From NCBI GenBank assembly GCA_003232915.1, contig QIKE01000103.1:1-48072 (forward strand): DNA of 48,072 bases, read 5' to 3'. The notes below the pieces were generated by a model that ran no database searches, was not told where the DNA came from, and saw only the letters and a list, made by a program, of their open reading frames with translations. Source of the DNA: Bacteroidota bacterium (lineage in GTDB: Bacteria > Bacteroidota > Bacteroidia > Bacteroidales > F082). A program made the position numbers and the translations under genes. How positions within the stretch are numbered: the first letter of the stretch is position 1; each line of letters begins with the position of its first letter. Positions 29,388 through 40,336 of the stretch are shown here, in pieces.

Positions 29388-32018
29388 TTATAAGTTTATC
29401 TTTTCTACAATGCTTCGTGCAGCTGAAAAAGCTTTCTCAATGCCTTGTGCATCTTTGCCTCCTGCCATAGCCAAATGAGGCTGCCCGCCACCTCCACCTT
29501 TAATGTAATGTGCAATTTCTTTAATAATTATTCCGGCATTTAATTTTTTTTCGTTAACCAATTCATCCGACAAAGCTACAAAAAGATTAACTTTTCCGTT
29601 GTGGACAATGGCAATAACCACAAAAACGTTGTTGGCCATTGAGCGTAACTTATGCGCCAAATTTTTAACATTTACCGGATCGTAGTCAATTTTTCTTGCT
29701 ACAAATAAGATATTTTTAAGCTTTTCGGCTTCTTCAAAAAGTTCTTTGCTCACCCTTAATGAATTCTCATTTTGGTAAATTTCGATTTTTTTCCGGAGAA
29801 TAACATTTTCCTCAATCAGTTGCTGAACAGTGTGTAAGGTGTCTGATTGAATTTTAAATAAACTTTTGATATTGTTTAAAAGGGTTAATTGTTTAGTGAA
29901 AAATTCTTCAGCTTTATCGGCTGTAATGGCTTCGATACGTCGCACACCTGCGGCGATTCCGCTTTCGGAAACAATTTTAAAACATCCGATTTGGCCGGTG
30001 GCTTCCACATGAGTTCCTCCACACAATTCAATGCTATAATCGGGGTCGAAAGTAATTACCCTCACTTTGTCGCCGTATTTTTCGCCAAAAAGTGCCATAG
30101 CTCCTTTGGTTTTGGCTTCTTCTATAGAAATGCCATCCTCAATCTTTAATGCAATATTTTCTCTAATTTTTAAATTTACGAGATGCTCAATAGCTTTAAT
30201 TTCTTCGCCGGTAGTTTTTGTAAAATGCGAAAAGTCGAAACGTAGCCGGTCGGCATTTACCAATGAGCCTTTTTGTTCGACATGTATTCCTAATACTTTG
30301 CGTAATGCTGCATGCATTAGGTGGGTGGCACTATGATTGTTAGCTATTAATCGACGCTTATTGGCATCCACTTTGGCAATAAATACCGATTTGGGATGTT
30401 TGGGTTTTTCTAAACATATATGAATCCAAAGATTGTTTTCTTTTTTGGTATTGATAATATGCAAGGTTTCGTATTTGGTAATTAGCTCTCCAGTGTCGCC
30501 AATTTGTCCGCCTGATTCGGCATAAAAAGGTGTTTTATTAAGCACTACTTCGTAAAAGGTTTTCTTTTTTGCCACCACTTTGCGGTATTTCAAAATTTTG
30601 GCTTCATTTTCTAATTGCCAATAACCTGTAAATTCGGTTTTGTTGTCCGACGTTCCCACCTCTATCCAAATGCCCGAATCTTTGGCGGCATCTTGTCGCG
30701 AACGCGCTTTTTGTGTTTCGAGACCTTTGTTGAACCCTTTCATATCCACAACAAATTCTTTTTCACGTGCCATTAGTTCTGTAAGATCAATGGGAAAGCC
30801 GAAGGTGTCGAATAGTTCGAAAGCAAAGGCGCCGGGAATAATTTTGATGTCGGAATGATTTTCGAGAAACTGATCGAAACGATGGATGCCGAGAGCCAAA
30901 GTTTTCTGAAAAGCTGCTTCTTCTTCCTTTATTACCTGTGTAACAAGGTTTTGCTGCAATTCAATTTCTGGAAAAGAAACTTTCATCTGTTCCACAAAAA
31001 CAGGGAGCAGTTTATAAATAAAAGGTTCTTCTATTTTTAGAAAAGAAAAACCGTAGCGAACAGCACGACGCAAAATGCGGCGGATTACATAACCTGCTCC
31101 CGTATTCGACGGCAATTGACCGTCGGTAATGGCAAAAGCTACGGCTCGCAAATGGTCGGCAACAACGCGCAAAGCAGTATCCACATCTTCATTTTTGCCA
31201 TATTCGACACCGGCAATATTAACCAACGCTTGAATCAGCGGTTGAAAAATATCCGTGTCGTAATTTGATTTAACTCCTTGCAAAACCATTGTTAAACGCT
31301 CGAAACCCATGCCGGTATCAATGTGTTTTTCAGGTAATATCTCAAGGTTTCCATTGGCTTGCCGGTTGAACTCAATAAATACCAAATTCCATATTTCGAT
31401 AACTTCAGGATGGCCTTTGTTAACTAATTCACGTCCTGATATTTTTTTCTTTTCTTCATCATTGCGCAAATCAATATGAATTTCGGAGCAAGGGCCGCAG
31501 GGGCCTGACTCACCCATTTCCCAAAAGTTGTCTTTTTTGTTGCCATACAAAATCCGGTCTTCAGGTACGATTACTTTCCAATATTCAAAGGCTTCGTTGT
31601 CGGTTTTCAAACCATAGAGCTTATCTCCTCCGAAAACAGTTACGTACAAATTTTCTTTATTAATTTTATACACTTCCGTCAACAGTTCCCATGCCCATTT
31701 TATGGCTTCCTTTTTAAAATAATCGCCAAACGACCAGTTACCGAGCATTTCAAACATCGTATGATGATAAGTATCGTGTCCCACTTCTTCAAGGTCGTTG
31801 TGTTTGCCCGAAACACGCAAACATTTTTGAGTGTCCGTTACACGGGAATGTTTTGGCGGCCTATTACCGAGAAAAATATCCTTGAACTGATTCATTCCCG
31901 CATTAATAAACATCAACGAGGGATCATCTTTAATTACCATTGGTACTCCCTGAACTATTAAGTGATTTTTATTTTTAAAAAAATCAAGAAAGGTCTGCCT
32001 TATTTCGTATGAATTCAT
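29388..32018 (-). CDS. alaS: Alanyl-tRNA synthetase
   Basis: AlaRS charges tRNA-Ala and edits mischarged Ser and Gly. The 876-residue protein is complete: the class II aminoacylation core (MNSYEIRQTFLDFFKNKNH at the start; GTGMGFERL-like TGMGFERLTMVLQG), the editing-domain zinc motif NHSATHLMHAAL near residue 563 with CGGTHVEATGQIG near residue 668, and the C-terminal DHHA1 domain ending GGGGGQPHLAMAGGKD. It is transcribed from a promoter at 32068-32075 that faces the M23 peptidase promoter. Confidence 0.97.
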   Translation of the reverse strand: MNSYEIRQTFLDFFKNKNHLIVQGVPMVIKDDPSLMFINAGMNQFKDIFLGNRPPKHSRVTDTQKCLRVSGKHNDLEEVGHDTYHHTMFEMLGNWSFGDYFKKEAIKWAWELLTEVYKINKENLYVTVFGGDKLYGLKTDNEAFEYWKVIVPEDRILYGNKKDNFWEMGESGPCGPCSEIHIDLRNDEEKKKISGRELVNKGHPEVIEIWNLVFIEFNRQANGNLEILPEKHIDTGMGFERLTMVLQGVKSNYDTDIFQPLIQALVNIAGVEYGKNEDVDTALRVVADHLRAVAFAITDGQLPSNTGAGYVIRRILRRAVRYGFSFLKIEEPFIYKLLPVFVEQMKVSFPEIELQQNLVTQVIKEEEAAFQKTLALGIHRFDQFLENHSDIKIIPGAFAFELFDTFGFPIDLTELMAREKEFVVDMKGFNKGLETQKARSRQDAAKDSGIWIEVGTSDNKTEFTGYWQLENEAKILKYRKVVAKKKTFYEVVLNKTPFYAESGGQIGDTGELITKYETLHIINTKKENNLWIHICLEKPKHPKSVFIAKVDANKRRLIANNHSATHLMHAALRKVLGIHVEQKGSLVNADRLRFDFSHFTKTTGEEIKAIEHLVNLKIRENIALKIEDGISIEEAKTKGAMALFGEKYGDKVRVITFDPDYSIELCGGTHVEATGQIGCFKIVSESGIAAGVRRIEAITADKAEEFFTKQLTLLNNIKSLFKIQSDTLHTVQQLIEENVILRKKIEIYQNENSLRVSKELFEEAEKLKNILFVARKIDYDPVNVKNLAHKLRSMANNVFVVIAIVHNGKVNLFVALSDELVNEKKLNAGIIIKEIAHYIKGGGGGQPHLAMAGGKDAQGIEKAFSAARSIVEKINL

Positions 32019-35299: not shown

Positions 35300-35731
35300 A
35301 TGTCCATAGATGTTTTAGTTACATATCCATTGCAATTTTTCATTGCAACTATATTTGCGCAAAATCAAATGGTGAGAAATTTGTTATCGGAAGATAAAGA
35401 GGGTATTACCGAAGTTTACGAGAATAATGGCAAGATATATAGTAAAATAGTTTGGCTTAAAGAGTCTGATAGTGACAAGTGTGTACGATATACCGATAAT
35501 GAAAATCCTGACACGATATTAAGGATACGCCCTTTGCTTAATGTAGTAATTTCTAAAGATTTTAATTACAAAAATAACAAAGGGAAACGCATAACTTTCT
35601 ACGAGTTGAAGAGTGGGAAAACCTATACTTGCATAATGTGGCTAACCTATAAAAACATATTAAAAGATAGAGGTTGCCTGAGTATTTTTTATCAGAATTT
35701 AAGTTTGGACAAAAACGAATTAAAAAAATGA
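35300..35731 (+). CDS. Hypothetical protein
   Basis: A 143-residue protein I do not recognise. The first 20 residues are hydrophobic (LVTYPLQFFIATIFA) but do not form a clean signal peptide. The rest alternates polar and aromatic residues and looks like a small beta-rich domain (KIYSKIVWLKESDSDKCVRY, TFYELKSGKTYTCIMWLTY). A start at the internal Met (MVRNLLSEDKEG, residue 24) is possible. A perfect promoter box upstream and the lack of overlap with other genes support it as real. It precedes an SMR efflux gene by about 47 bp. Confidence 0.55.
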   Translation: MSIDVLVTYPLQFFIATIFAQNQMVRNLLSEDKEGITEVYENNGKIYSKIVWLKESDSDKCVRYTDNENPDTILRIRPLLNVVISKDFNYKNNKGKRITFYELKSGKTYTCIMWLTYKNILKDRGCLSIFYQNLSLDKNELKK

Positions 35732-35778
35732 TGAAGGGCAAAATTTATTCAATAATCAGCTTTAAAAGAAATAAAAAA

Positions 35779-36108
35779 ATGACATTCATATATTTGGCAA
35801 TAGCAATACTTGCTGAAGTTACGGCGACAAGTGCCTTAAAGGCTTCTGATGAATTTACAAAGATAATACCGGTATTGATAATAATTGCTGGATATGGATT
35901 GGCATTCTATTTTATGACCTTGGTGTTAAGAACTTTACCGATAGGAATCACTTATGCCATTTGGTCGGGACTGGGTATTGTTTTGGTTACAATTGTGGGT
36001 GCGATTTTATATAAGCAAATACCTGACACTCCGGCAATTGTTGGTATGGGATTAATAGTTGCAGGAGTGGCCGTGATAAATATTCTTTCAAAAACGGTAA
36101 TAAATTAA
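35779..36108 (+). CDS. Small multidrug resistance (SMR) family transporter, EmrE/QacE type
   Basis: A 109-residue protein with four membrane helices, working as a dual-topology proton antiporter. Glu13 in IAILAEVTATSALK is the essential carboxylate of the EmrE type (Glu14 in EmrE). LPIGITYAIWSGLGIVLVTI and the last helix AIVGMGLIVAGVAVINILS are characteristic. The YAIWSGLG form favours Qac-type (drug/cation) over Gdx-type (guanidinium) pumps, though this is inference. The true start is ATG 35779; the longer upstream frame overlaps the preceding gene. Confidence 0.92.
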   Translation: MTFIYLAIAILAEVTATSALKASDEFTKIIPVLIIIAGYGLAFYFMTLVLRTLPIGITYAIWSGLGIVLVTIVGAILYKQIPDTPAIVGMGLIVAGVAVINILSKTVIN

Positions 36109-36233: not shown

Positions 36234-36803
36234 ATGGATTTAATAGTTTTATACATCACAACAGGTATCTCGGTGCTAATGGGCATATATGTTTTTTCTG
36301 GGATAAAGAAAACGTACGACAGAAAAGGAACCTATACGAATAAACTTCTGACTCTTTGGTACACTATGTGGGCGTTTCACCATGTTCCATTGATGTTGGC
36401 ATCATATTATGGCGTGTGGTCGATACCCATTGACAAAACATTTGCTATGGCAGGAGGTTTAATTTTATTTCTCGCTGGAGTAATCCTTCTGCCAATGGGG
36501 ATGATTGAGTTTCGCACATTGAGTAGGTCAACCGGACAGGATATTTCAAAACTTATAACAACAGGCATTTACAGATGGAGCCGAAACCCGCAGTTTGTCG
36601 GGTGGTTTTTGATGCTTCTTGGAATATCACTTGCCGGGCGGTCCGGATTTGCATTTGCACTTACAGTAGTATTCATCATTGTGATTTATTTATATACAAT
36701 TCTGCTGGCAGAACCTTACCTTGAAAGTTTATATGGCGAGGAGTACCGTTTGTTTAAAAAGAGAACCGCAAGATGGATTGGAATACCAAAAGAAAATAAA
36801 TAA
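36234..36803 (+). CDS. ICMT/PEMT-like integral membrane methyltransferase
   Basis: A 189-residue protein with about five membrane helices. The C-terminal half carries the family signature: GIYRWSRNPQFVGWFLMLLG (about 119-138) and EPYLESLYGEEYRLFKKRTARWIG (about 161-184), the AdoMet-binding region of isoprenylcysteine carboxyl methyltransferase-like enzymes. Bacterial members methylate small molecules or lipids; the substrate is unknown. It follows the SMR gene by 125 bp on the same strand. Confidence 0.87.
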   Translation: MDLIVLYITTGISVLMGIYVFSGIKKTYDRKGTYTNKLLTLWYTMWAFHHVPLMLASYYGVWSIPIDKTFAMAGGLILFLAGVILLPMGMIEFRTLSRSTGQDISKLITTGIYRWSRNPQFVGWFLMLLGISLAGRSGFAFALTVVFIIVIYLYTILLAEPYLESLYGEEYRLFKKRTARWIGIPKENK

Positions 36804-37214
36804 AATTAAGGTTCAACTACCATTTTAGTGGAAAACTTTTTATTGAGGCGAATTAAATGCAGATATTAAAACATTTATATTGATCATTATGAAAATTATG
36901 GCGTTATTTTAATAAACATCAGATATTTAATACTAAAATCACTTTCTATTTCACTAAATTCGCAGTGTTACTTGCGGTAGTTTGCTTTTTAAGCAAAGTT
37001 TTTTTTAAATTTGCCATAATATAATTATTAAGAAATGTATTTAAAGATGAAAAAATGTTATTTATAGGTAACATAAATTCATCAACTGTTGGGATGTTTA
37101 GTATGCCATGCTTATATCTGGATGCAAGTTTGACAAAACAACATAAGGCATTCCCGTTTAGCAGAACACTCCATTTATTTAATACATCGGATAAATAATT
37201 TAAAACCGAACAAT
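36804..37214. other. Intergenic region, no convincing gene
   Basis: About 410 bp. An antisense frame at 36946-37251 (101 codons) lacks motifs and overlaps the start of the next gene; I do not call it. Confidence 0.45.
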
Positions 37215-38180
37215 ATGAAGCAAATTTTTCAAAATATAATATTAGAAACAATAAAACGCCGGTTTAAAAAAAACAAACAAAAACTTTCCTTAAAACAATG
37301 TAAGAAGGAAATAGTTAAAGTAAAAGTTGAATTTACTCATATAATTTACGATAGTTTGTTAATAATATTAGGAGTTTTATCAGCTAGTTTTGGGTTGAAG
37401 GGATTTTTACTGCCAAATTTGTTTATTGATGGGGGCGTAACTGGAATTTCTCTAATAATTGCCGAATTATCCGGACTGTCTTTGTCTTTATTATTGGTTG
37501 CGATTAACCTCCCTTTTCTAATTTTAGCGTTTTATACAATCAGCAAACAATTCGCTTTTAGAAGTATTATTGCAATTATTTTACTTGCTGCGTCAGTTCA
37601 TTTTATACCGTTTCCTATAGTTACAAATGATAAATTGCTGATTGCCGTTTTCGGAGGGTTCTTTTTAGGATTGGGAATTGGTTTGGCAATTCGGGGAGGC
37701 TCTGTTATTGACGGAACAGAGGTGTTGGCTGTTTTTATCAGTCGAAAAACAGCGTTAACGATAGGGGATGTAATTTTATTATTTAATATTCTTATTTTTG
37801 GATTTGCCGCATATATATTTACAATTGAAATTTCGTTATATGCAATGTTAACCTATTGGGCAGCATCTCGAACTGTTAATTTTGTCGTATCGGGTATAGA
37901 AGAATATGTGGGTGTAACAATAATATCGGATAAAAACGAGGAAATCAGACTGGCGATAATCGAAAAATTGGGAAGAGGGTGCACTTTATATTCCGGTAAA
38001 AAAGGATATGCTAAAAAAGGTGAGACTCTAATGCCAATTGAAATTGTTTATACATTGGTTACAAGGCTTGAATTGGCAAAACTGCATACGGAAATAGATA
38101 AAATTGATAAAGATGCGTTTATTGTGATGCATAGTGTAAAAGATGCAAAAGGAGGGATGATAAAAAAAAGATCATTATAA
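37215..38180 (+). CDS. YitT family membrane protein with DUF2179 domain
   Basis: A 321-residue protein. After an N-terminal basic cytoplasmic stretch of about 35 residues come five to six membrane helices of the DUF161/YitT type (DSLLIILGVLSASFGLKGFLLP, DGGVTGISLIIAELSGLS, FGGFFLGLGIGLAIRGGSVI with DGTEVLAVF). A soluble C-terminal DUF2179 domain follows (about 240-315: EEYVGVTIISDKNEEIRLAI, GRGCTLYSGKKGYAKKGET, DKIDKDAFIVMHSVKDAKGG). The function is not established. It is a single gene in its own transcript as far as can be seen. Confidence 0.9.
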   Translation: MKQIFQNIILETIKRRFKKNKQKLSLKQCKKEIVKVKVEFTHIIYDSLLIILGVLSASFGLKGFLLPNLFIDGGVTGISLIIAELSGLSLSLLLVAINLPFLILAFYTISKQFAFRSIIAIILLAASVHFIPFPIVTNDKLLIAVFGGFFLGLGIGLAIRGGSVIDGTEVLAVFISRKTALTIGDVILLFNILIFGFAAYIFTIEISLYAMLTYWAASRTVNFVVSGIEEYVGVTIISDKNEEIRLAIIEKLGRGCTLYSGKKGYAKKGETLMPIEIVYTLVTRLELAKLHTEIDKIDKDAFIVMHSVKDAKGGMIKKRSL

Positions 38181-39082
38181 TAATAGCCTTCTACAAAAAA
38201 GAAAACCGGCAGCTAATATCGGCGGCAAGAGTAAAGCAAACTCATACACAAAAGGTTGAGAAATTGCTTTTGAAAGGTACGGCATAAGGAAGTGGAAGCA
38301 ATCGCCAACTTTGATACAAATGAAGATGAGACGTTAAAAAAAAGTTGCAATTTTGTAAAGCTACTTCCTGTTCTTTTAGAGAAGAAGTAATTATAATAAA
38401 TGAGTCCGGTCTAAAAAGGTTCTATAATGATTTTAAGTAATTTTACCCCCTAATTAGCCTAAATGGAAGTTGTTGAAAATAAGCGAATATTGTAGAGATG
38501 AGATAATCTTTGATTTTAAATATTTACGCTTTTTTACCTTTTAAGACTGGACTCATAAATGCCGTTTGGAAAATAATAGCAACATTAGTCGAAGTAATCT
38601 CCTAATCTTAGTGCACATATTAACAAAAAGTCATGCCTTCTTCCTCATAAACTCTATGTTTAGCAGCATTGCAATGAGACGTGGATTTGGTTTTTGTGCG
38701 TAAAACTTTAGTAGGTGTGTGGTGGGTTTGAGGCCGGGATTGGAGTGGTAATCCGTAGCGCCAAAACATAGTTATGTTGGCAGTAAAGCTATAAATGCAT
38801 TGTGTTTCATTGTAAATGCAATGACCGAAACAGCTTAGGGGATAGTTCTATAACGAAAAGTTCGATACAGTGAGGGTAGGGTAGGAGTTGGGTTATAGGT
38901 GAGGAAGGTGGAAAACTGTGACCGCCCAATTGATGAAATAATTGATATTCGGATGTTTATGACGACTGGTTCATTCTCGAACTTTCGAATTATCCGACAC
39001 TTAAAAGACTTTCAATTTGTCGTTAATGTCAGAAAATGTATTATCAGATTAAAATAAGTACGTTTATTATCCGTTATTTTTT
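38181..39082. other. Intergenic region holding a MITE-like element
   Basis: About 900 bp. The MITE-like element at 38402-38554 is the only recognised structure. The segment 38640-38960 is more GC-rich than usual for this window's gaps, without a recognisable frame or RNA. Confidence 0.5.
38402..38554. mobile_element. MITE-like element with 19-bp terminal inverted repeats and 6-bp target duplication
   Basis: The left end GAGTCCGGTCTAAAAAGGT (38402-38420) and the reverse complement of the right end (38536-38554), GAGTCCAGTCTTAAAAGGT, agree at 17 of 19 bases. ATAAAT stands directly outside both ends (38396-38401 and 38555-38560), a perfect 6-bp target-site duplication. The 153-bp interior has no open frame. 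It would need a transposase supplied in trans by an insertion sequence with the same ends; none is in the window. Confidence 0.85.
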
Positions 39083-39090
39083 TACTTTTG
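39083..39090 (+). promoter_or_regulatory. -7 box of the T9SS cargo/DUF1573/yajC series
   Basis: TACTTTTG is a perfect match, 41 bp before the ATG at 39131. Confidence 0.5.
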
Positions 39091-39130
39091 TACAATTTAA
39101 TGAAATGATAAAAAATCAGTCGTATTTTTA

Positions 39131-40336
39131 ATGAAAAAAACAAAGCGATATTATGAATTGCAGGTCGTAAGCCTGATTTTATTTATGTTATCTTTAAATA
39201 TTGTGATAGAAGCACAGGTTTCGTGCGATATTTCTATTGATGTGCCACAGCCGGTATGTTATAATACTTTTTTCGATTTGAGTGTTTTGGAGCAGTCTGG
39301 TTTTCTTTATTATTGGGCACCTACGGGTGATACTACTTCAAGTATTACTGTAAAAATTACTGAGGCTACAAATTTTACGGTAAGAGTTATTGACACAATA
39401 AATCACGATACTTGTACTTCCGCACCCTTCCGTGTTGATATGAGGCCTGAAATAACTGTAAGTTTTACGCAGAAACAACTCACCTGTACCGATGGCGATG
39501 CCGACAACGGCAACACGGCGCAGATTAAAGCTAAAGCCGGTAACGAATTTCCCGCCGATCAATACCATTATTTTTGGCAAGTACCGCCTCTGCATATTTC
39601 CCCGGGCGATTCTTCTTTTGCTATAGGTCTTAAAGCACATCTTAATTATATGGTAAAAGTGATTGATAAACACGACTGCTCTGTTGTCGATACTTTTTAT
39701 ACCAAAGCTTTTGACAATCCTATTATAGAAATCAAAGCCGATCCCGACACAGCGTATATTGAGAACCCACACGTTACTTTTAGTTTCACCAATCTCTCGG
39801 AAGACAGCATAAAAATCACCAACAGCTTTTGGGAATTCGACAAGGATGCAGAGTCGTATTCGGAACCCGTGTTGCTTTATACTTTCACCGATTTAGGTAC
39901 TTATAATGTTTTTTTAACGGTTTCCAATCAATATGGCTGCGACACTGTTTACACTTCGGTAGTTGATGTGCTTCCTGTAAATCTGCTCATTCCTAGTGTC
40001 TTCACTCCTAACGGCGACGGCATCAATGATACTTTTATTATTTCGGAAGCTCCTTCTTCAACATCTGGTGGTAACGACAATGCCGGAGGGCAAAAGAGTA
40101 TCAATACACAAGAATCGGAACGATACAAACCTTTGAGCAGATTTTATGAAAGCTACGAATTAGTGGTTTTCAACCGTCAGGGAAGGAAAGTATTTCAGTC
40201 GAGTAATTATCAAAACGACTGGGATGGTGGTGGTTTGCCCGATGGTGTTTATTTTTATGTGTTAAAATGTAATGGTTATAAAAATAAAAATGTCGTATAT
40301 AAAGGTTCTGTTAGTATTTTTGGCAGTGGAAGATAG
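39131..40336 (+). CDS. Secreted PKD-like protein with T9SS type-B C-terminal sorting domain
   Basis: A 401-residue exported protein: signal peptide (1-28, ending IEAQ), Ig/PKD-like modules (FSFTNLSEDSIKITNSFWEF and YTFTDLGTYNVFLTVSNQYG are classic PKD strands, about 218-272), and the gliding-motility-associated C-terminal domain (about 280-401) opening PSVFTPNGDGINDTFII and containing YELVVFNRQGRKVF, NDWDGGGLPDGVYFYVL. That domain is the type-B sorting signal that sends cargo through the type IX secretion system to the cell surface. A low-complexity insert (SSTSGGNDNAGGQKSINTQ) interrupts the sorting domain. The target of the protein is unknown. Confidence 0.9.
   Translation: MKKTKRYYELQVVSLILFMLSLNIVIEAQVSCDISIDVPQPVCYNTFFDLSVLEQSGFLYYWAPTGDTTSSITVKITEATNFTVRVIDTINHDTCTSAPFRVDMRPEITVSFTQKQLTCTDGDADNGNTAQIKAKAGNEFPADQYHYFWQVPPLHISPGDSSFAIGLKAHLNYMVKVIDKHDCSVVDTFYTKAFDNPIIEIKADPDTAYIENPHVTFSFTNLSEDSIKITNSFWEFDKDAESYSEPVLLYTFTDLGTYNVFLTVSNQYGCDTVYTSVVDVLPVNLLIPSVFTPNGDGINDTFIISEAPSSTSGGNDNAGGQKSINTQESERYKPLSRFYESYELVVFNRQGRKVFQSSNYQNDWDGGGLPDGVYFYVLKCNGYKNKNVVYKGSVSIFGSGR

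Follow-up and report, generated by a model that had tools for sequence, protein, structure and literature searches.

A short segment bounded by inverted repeats lies in a 950-bp gap between two genes on the plus strand of the window, by which we mean the whole analysed stretch of 48,072 nucleotides from a Bacteroidota bacterium. What is this segment, what moved it there, and where did its interior come from? The usual account of a MITE is that it is a reduced copy of a single insertion sequence (IS).

Structure and setting of the element

The inverted-repeat ends claimed in an earlier note on this DNA were found as described, the left and right terminal inverted repeats (TIRs) being identical at 17 of 19 positions, and the exact 6-bp duplication that it claimed, ATAAAT on both sides, also held, down to its coordinates (Table 1). 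The 153 bp that it gave to the interior is correct as the length of the whole element including the TIRs; the stretch between the TIRs measures 115 bp. Its statement that the interior encodes nothing was borne out insofar as no ORF overlaps the element among those of at least 80 aa, the shortest listed, but the descent of this interior from a structured hairpin core had been overlooked. A search of the window with the TIR pattern at up to 3 mismatches returned 2 matches, the two ends of the element, with 0.04 expected from shuffles. The RNA fold of 38396-38560 had a z of -5.06, and none of 200 shuffles was equally stable. Of the two neighbouring genes, the downstream one encodes a CHU_C type IX secretion domain, which points to Bacteroidota.

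Table 1. Positions of the element, its parts and neighbours in the window, and of the parent-type relic elsewhere in the same genome
Feature	Position	Strand	Sequence or length	Basis or remark
Left target duplication copy	38396..38401	.	ATAAAT	sequence; fits consensus ATNNAT
Left TIR	38402..38420	+	GAGTCCGGTCTAAAAAGGT	sequence, end-pattern searches (genome and window)
Non-coding interior	38421..38535	.		decayed two-hairpin core, subfamily A; covariance model R1, alignment A1
Right TIR	38536..38554	-	GAGTCCAGTCTTAAAAGGT (minus-strand reading)	sequence, end-pattern searches (genome and window)
Right target duplication copy	38555..38560	.	ATAAAT	sequence
Whole element	38402-38554		153 bp	including TIRs
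YitT-family membrane gene	37215-38180	+		upstream neighbour of element
CHU_C/PKD gene	39131-40336	+		downstream neighbour of element
C39 relic	29455-30524		1,070 bp	both ends, decayed reading frame, no duplication

The element has the characters of a MITE: it is short, non-coding and bounded by terminal inverted repeats, it occurs in several copies at unrelated sites with target duplications, and its ends are common to it and to transposase-bearing elements (one end of the IS in genome G264 is identical). A search of four sources against Rfam gave 5 weak matches, none above the gathering score and all in L048 outside its element, and no match in L001, the locus containing the window element.

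Two other features of this part of the window were observed. An SMR (small multidrug resistance) family transporter gene with an intact frame lies at 35674-36108, 2.3 kb upstream of the element, and no link between this gene and the MITE was seen. A second dispersed repeat family, ~200 bp long (TGGGTTTGCGGCAGGGATTGGAGTGGCAGCCCGTAGC...), is represented at 38723-38861 by a decayed copy, which has eight other matching places in the genome; six inspected repeats were 75-94% alike mutually and 76-85% alike to the window copy over 45-55 bp.

Copies in the genome and target site duplication

The search for other copies of the ends that the earlier note had suggested gave 45 matches across the genome (at most 2 mismatches) and none for the reversed pattern used as a control. 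Both sister copies and ISs with such ends were found, the absence of which that note had named as evidence against its reading. In its own genome the 165-bp segment had 28 matches: besides the window copy there were eight that span nearly the full length (85-97% identity), a single match at 78% and 18 that were weaker. Each of the nine A-type copies, the window's included, carries 1-4 substitutions from their consensus (4 in the window copy), with a mean pairwise difference of 3.6% and a maximum of 5.3%, and this low divergence suggests that subfamily A spread in this genome fairly recently. A second subfamily, B, has ends as in A and a related interior; six of its copies are truncated at contig ends, as is expected of repeats. 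By eye, four copies (C81, C108, C113 and C39) have internal tandem duplications of ~10-17 bp, and some of the B copies have deletions.

Target duplications were examined in 43 distinct elements of 60-260 bp from this genome and its relatives, with end pairs of at most 4 mismatches per end. A perfect 6-bp direct duplication was observed in 24 of the 43, versus 24 of 1,806 pairings of the left flanks of one copy with the right flanks of another. The others had 7 bp (2 elements), were one base off 6 (8) or were worse (9). Shifting the register by 1-4 bases gave no perfect duplications, except for three at +1. The 24 perfect duplications yield the target consensus ATNNAT, a palindromic preference, with A at position 1 in 42 and T at position 2 in 39 of 48 strand readings. 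A 104-bp element elsewhere in the genome (L099, 1783-1886) has ends of the type called class 2 below and a perfect 6-bp duplication, AAGATT; it has no similarity to the hairpin core.

Parent insertion sequence

The earlier note had also expected an active IS with the same ends to exist, or to have existed, in this genome. Complete ISs with nearly the same ends were found in related genomes, and relics of them here; the expected activity in this genome was not borne out. The NF033551 (IS1182) profile gave nothing in the draft assembly, which is 86.6% complete; the same search matched 26 of 60 genomes (8 above cut-off) and also 6 of 14 control genomes. The only relics of the parent type in the genome are C39 and C107. 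The C39 relic was recognised by its ends, the pieces of its reading frame led to complete elements, and the ends of these were examined afterwards. Searched against Pfam and NCBIfam, its protein pieces gave no transposase and only two families at chance level, and it was through the intact relatives of the relic that the assignment to the IS1182 family became clear. Of 295 genomes of the order, 7 (its own included) contain matches to its translated pieces.

Elements of the parent type are IS1182-like and ~1.97 kb long; two complete relatives occur in the same order, one in G264 (1,973 bp, with a frame of 609 codons stop to stop) and one in G256 (1,974 bp, 576 codons stop to stop). The ends are GAGTCCAGTCTAAAAAGGT, identical to the family ends, and GAGTCCAGTTTAAAAACAC in G264, and GAGTCCAGTATAAAAAGGT and GAGTCCAGTTTAAAAACTT in G256. 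The second end reads GAGTCCAGTTTAAAAAC.. in both and is alike in its outer part alone, the last bases departing from the MITE consensus, and a 6-bp duplication is absent from both copies. The best profile for both transposases was NF033551 IS1182 (5e-38 and 5e-37), at 131 and 128 bits against an NCBI cut-off of 270, and both also match Pfam DUF772 and DDE_Tnp_1_6. Matches to the G264 transposase were obtained in 23 plasmid records, all below 60% identity (23-26% among the 15 listed); all being distant, they hold no close named IS.

Five elements have GAG[TC]CC ends, three of them scored by the IS1182 profile (G256, G264 and G030) and two found by tblastn alone (G335 and G311). The G030 IS, of the same family, has the ends GAGCCCACTCCGAAAAG/GAGCCCACTCCGATAAG with ACTAAT on both sides (by eye); its frame extends past the right end by ~70 bases, and no ends were returned for it by the automatic search. 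The G335 element has GAGTCCACTCCGAAAAG ends and no 6-bp duplication, and the G311 element, with GAGCCCACTTTAAAAAG ends and a 7-bp duplication, has a frame interrupted by a stop. Since only decayed relics and no intact transposase were found in the window's own genome, the parent looks dead there or missing from the 87%-complete draft, and subfamily A has probably stopped moving in this genome.

An origin of the window element by internal deletion of an IS was considered and rejected, only its ends (16-21 bp) matching the five ISs and the C39 relic used as reference, although the true parent may lie outside those five. The interior of the G256 IS contains an AT-rich 37-bp match to the element (84%, E 9e-5) and shorter ones, which we judge to be chance. 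A 171-bp segment at C108:7106-7276 is matched by the C39-type IS at 79% over 131 bp and at 91% over 33 bp and, judging by these matches, is an internal-deletion derivative of that IS. This segment and the window type are alike in the kind of ends and in MITE size, whereas the window type has little beyond an end of ~20 bp in common with the ISs.

The two-hairpin core

The best-preserved interior consists of two neighbouring hairpins, H1 (TGAAAATCAG...CTGATTTTCA) and H2 (CAGCCACTT...CCCTTTAGGGG...AAGTGGCTG). Clustering by interior similarity placed 29 of the 43 elements in the largest cluster, which contains subfamilies A and B, elements of G002, G006, G025 and G048, and those of three MAGs; three elements of at most 80 bp were left unclustered. 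Covariance model R1, constructed without any A-type copy, matched the window at 38425-38525 on the minus strand (35.3 bits, rough E 7.7e-5), its next best match in the window scoring 17.8 bits (E 0.22). The interior of subfamily A is decayed and by eye has lost much of the stem, yet the subfamily spread.

A search of 393 genomes of the order with a G025 element as query gave at least 27 matches in at least 20 genomes, its own included, both counts being lower bounds with two candidates scored per listed genome. Seventeen of the 27 matches reach neither end of the query, and the flanking ends differ at several. The covariance model finds at least 12 cores in the window's own genome, including two newly found ones (C20 and C47) with degenerate ends or one end. 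Among 296 genomes of the phylum, searched under strict filters with 13 candidates scored per listed genome, at least two matched (its own and G715), so we do not claim a phylum-wide spread. The single model match in G715, from another order of the same class, has tandem hairpins with the loop of the core and a different stem.

Two observations concern the hairpins themselves. At L214 (~1300-1860; other order, same class), tandem hairpins TTTCTCCTTTT-CCCCCTTTAGGGTTGGGGC-AAAAAAGGAGAAA combine the core's loop with a different stem, and no end pair of classes 1-4 was seen nearby. At G025 loci, small hairpins lie inside the H1 or H2 loops, as if the loops accept further palindromes, namely CCCGATATTGACATCGGGA in L158 (with a variant in L160) and CCTGCCTACCGCCAGGCTGGGA in L158 and L159.

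Covariation of the core stems

Compensatory change was strong in one of the two core stems. It was assessed in a set (A2) of 26 of the 41 cores described below, 15 having been dropped by hand for long loops or as a second core type. Because the stem itself helped to locate the cores, the result is biased towards it. In H2, 95.6% of cells were paired, compared with 21-50% when slid, and 6 of 9 pairs had changed on both sides. Its covariation score was 0.353, compared with 0.120 for shuffles, none of the 500 reaching that value, and its number of pair types was not unusual (117 of 500 shuffles). For H1 the corresponding values were 90.5% paired versus 26-50% when slid, double changes in 3 of 9 pairs, a count that 81 of 500 shuffles reach, and a score of 0.223 versus 0.130 (0 of 500). 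Related sequences can beat shuffles without structure, and the slid controls were therefore also relied on. In the narrower alignment A1 (19 hand-picked elements), the structure predicted by RNAalifold contained the ends and two short inner stems. Double changes affected four pairs, equal to the shuffled mean, and the cells paired, the double-changed cells and the score each beat all 500 shuffles. Covariation was clearer in the wider set A2 than in A1.

End classes around the core

The 41 core-bearing loci comprise 24 of the 27 from the G025-query search (one omitted as already represented and two without a located core) and 17 others. These 17 had been found before that search, almost always by their ends, and are therefore biased towards classes 1 and 2. 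A recognisable end pair was observed at 34 of the 41, and none or one end at 7. Class 1 ends (GAGTCCRRTCTAAAAAG) were found at 24 of the 41 loci and 9 of the 24 G025-query loci, class 2 ends (GAGTCCACTCCGAAAAG) at 4 and 3, class 3 ends (AGGCTGTCTCAAAA) at 4 and 4, and class 4 ends (GGYTGTCCAAAAAG) at 2 and 2, leaving 6 of the 24 G025-query loci without an assigned class.

The classes differ in their flanks. The mean number of matching bases in the 6-bp direct duplication was 4.9 for class 1 and 5.75 for class 2, and 0.75 for class 3 (4 copies) and 1.0 for class 4 (2 copies). Among the four class 3 copies, one sits within a perfect palindrome (flanks 10/10 inverted); the other three have 4/10 inverted flanks, no more than class 1. 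Class 1 ends also occur on the IS1182-type elements of G264 and G256, class 2 ends on those of G335 and, as a variant, G030, and class 3 ends on L135 (474 bits) and, as a variant, L136 (454 bits), neither with a duplication. Class 4 ends were not seen on any IS, and most other IS1182-profile loci inspected in relatives had no clear ends. The core is flanked by at least four kinds of ends in the order, three of which are also found on IS1182-type elements.

On a tree built from 34 cores, 6 changes of end class are required, where the minimum is 3, and class 1 is forced to arise at least twice. The tree is poorly resolved: 18 of its 30 inner branches are open, long branches meet and the class label is clustered, and the case for end-swapping therefore leans on it weakly.

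Occurrence in related genomes and distant MAGs

The end pattern was found in 11 of the 60 genomes searched, its own counted; the reversed control also gave 1-2 hits in about a dozen of the 60, and isolated weak hits therefore carry little weight. Paired ends were sought by exact match in the genome_contigs collection (described as covering 84,980 species, with records near the window's own genome possibly excluded), which gave three loci, in MAGs labelled Flavobacteriales, Chlorobiota and Bacteroidetes, with 6-bp duplications matching at 5/6, 2/6 and perfectly. The Flavobacteriales-labelled MAG holds an element nearly of the window type.

When 37215-39130 was compared with 12 genomes of the genus, its own included, matches were observed in 6 and none offered an alignable empty site; besides MITE-like pieces and a 36-bp match (G010), only the upstream gene matched, in G008 at 66% identity. 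The sole match of G464, the genome that holds locus L132, to window positions 36800-40300 is one A-type element. In the search of L132 (4,081 bp) against the window's own genome, all 25 matches listed fall within 1478-1655, with 40 of 84 candidates scored. This confinement to the element points to lateral spread or a misbinned contig. On L132, from the Flavobacteriales-labelled MAG, the A-type copy at 1495-1644 overlaps the 3' end of a minus-strand frame (2070-1606) and supplies its stop codon, and the contig also bears small genes that by eye are toxin-antitoxin-like.

Discussion

Taken together, the ends, the copies and the related ISs make it very probable that the element is a MITE mobilised by an IS1182-like transposase, with IS1182-type ends around a pre-existing two-hairpin core. 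An IS1182-like DDE transposase supplied in trans would bind the GAGTCC...AAAAAGGT ends, excise or copy the element and insert it with a 6-bp staggered cut. The MITE itself would have originated when IS1182-type ends came to flank the core, and not by simple deletion inside an IS, and its activity in this genome would since have been lost. Counting against this explanation, 19 of the 43 elements have no perfect 6-bp duplication and the G264 and G256 IS copies have none.

Could another transposase with similar end recognition have moved these elements? The duplication length is unlike that of the IS1182 members ISPse1 and IS1272, mobilisation by an IS1182-like transposase is something we infer, and the search for transposases relied solely on resemblance to the relic or to the IS1182 profile, so that an unrelated IS would be missed unless it lay near an end match. 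Against this, the relic between such ends in the window's own genome is of the IS1182-like kind and three of the five GAG[TC]CC-ended elements score with the IS1182 profile, and we consider a non-IS1182 transposase very unlikely. Slightly less probable still is that selection maintains the copies chiefly as intergenic hairpins with a regulatory or structural role (REP- or terminator-like), their transposon-like ends being incidental. The core stem does covary, the window copy does lie between two co-directional genes, and five class 1 and 2 elements fold better than shuffles as DNA (z from -2.6 for the window copy to -9.3), but exact 6-bp duplications at unrelated sites and ends in common with transposase-bearing elements speak against such an origin. 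A scan of 38100-39200 also placed no terminator at the element and a single promoter-like site across its right end (38548-38577), with region counts of 6 and 1 near the shuffled means of 4.1 and 0.6.

The covariation itself has another candidate source, in which the hairpin arms correct each other during replication by template switching and no selection acts on the core. Template-switch correction is known for quasi-palindromes. That subfamily A still spread with much of its stem lost is in keeping with it, but genomes and end types differ little in the CCCTTTAGGG loop motif or in how the hairpins are ordered and spaced, and we regard this explanation as a real possibility that falls somewhat short of being probable.

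Returning to the reading of the element as a MITE with IS1182-type ends, the MITE itself is ordinary; a shared core with exchangeable ends is unusual. We tentatively suggest, at rather less than an even chance, that the conserved core, with its changing stem and near-constant loop, is a passenger module captured repeatedly by the ends of different IS1182-type subgroups, including those that insert with 6-bp duplications and those that insert with none. The core and not the ends would then be the long-lived part, perhaps recognised by a host or transposition protein. Its role may be that of a recognition site or of a structure that aids transposition or escapes repression; alternatively, the host may benefit from it as an RNA or DNA hairpin, or it may be a functionless palindrome that corrects itself. 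If one structured core does recur between the ends of several transposase subgroups, MITEs can persist by switching transposase, the covarying stems suggest a function that can be tested, and there would be an explanation for one class of the intergenic hairpin repeats found in these genomes.

The literature searched, with ISfinder and most subscription papers outside it, yielded no description of the two-hairpin core or of such an IS1182-derived MITE; what is new is that several IS1182-type end sets enclose a common structured core. A single DDE transposase, a length of ~1.8-2.0 kb and short terminal repeats are features of the IS1182 family that the parent-type elements here also have. The family has been called heterogeneous, IS1272 is described as replacing inverted repeats with no duplication (PMC5678879), and ISPse1 is given with a 4-bp duplication in PMC3281130, in contrast to the 6-bp ATNNAT duplication here. 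The insertion of core elements of classes 3 and 4 without duplication resembles IS1272 as PMC5678879 and PMC4923244 present it. The BrickBuilt MITE of Porphyromonas gingivalis is likewise multi-copy with internal repeats, as are the four copies here with tandem duplications, but its 23-nt repeat array, IS5-like ends and irregular duplications, as summarised in PMC4596501, are unlike the element here. The Cardinium MITE (Amoebophilaceae) is, according to PMC9769881, IS-derived and spread by its parental IS, like the element here; its parent is an intact IS of the IS982 family, whereas the parent here is IS1182-like and survives in the window's own genome as relics only.
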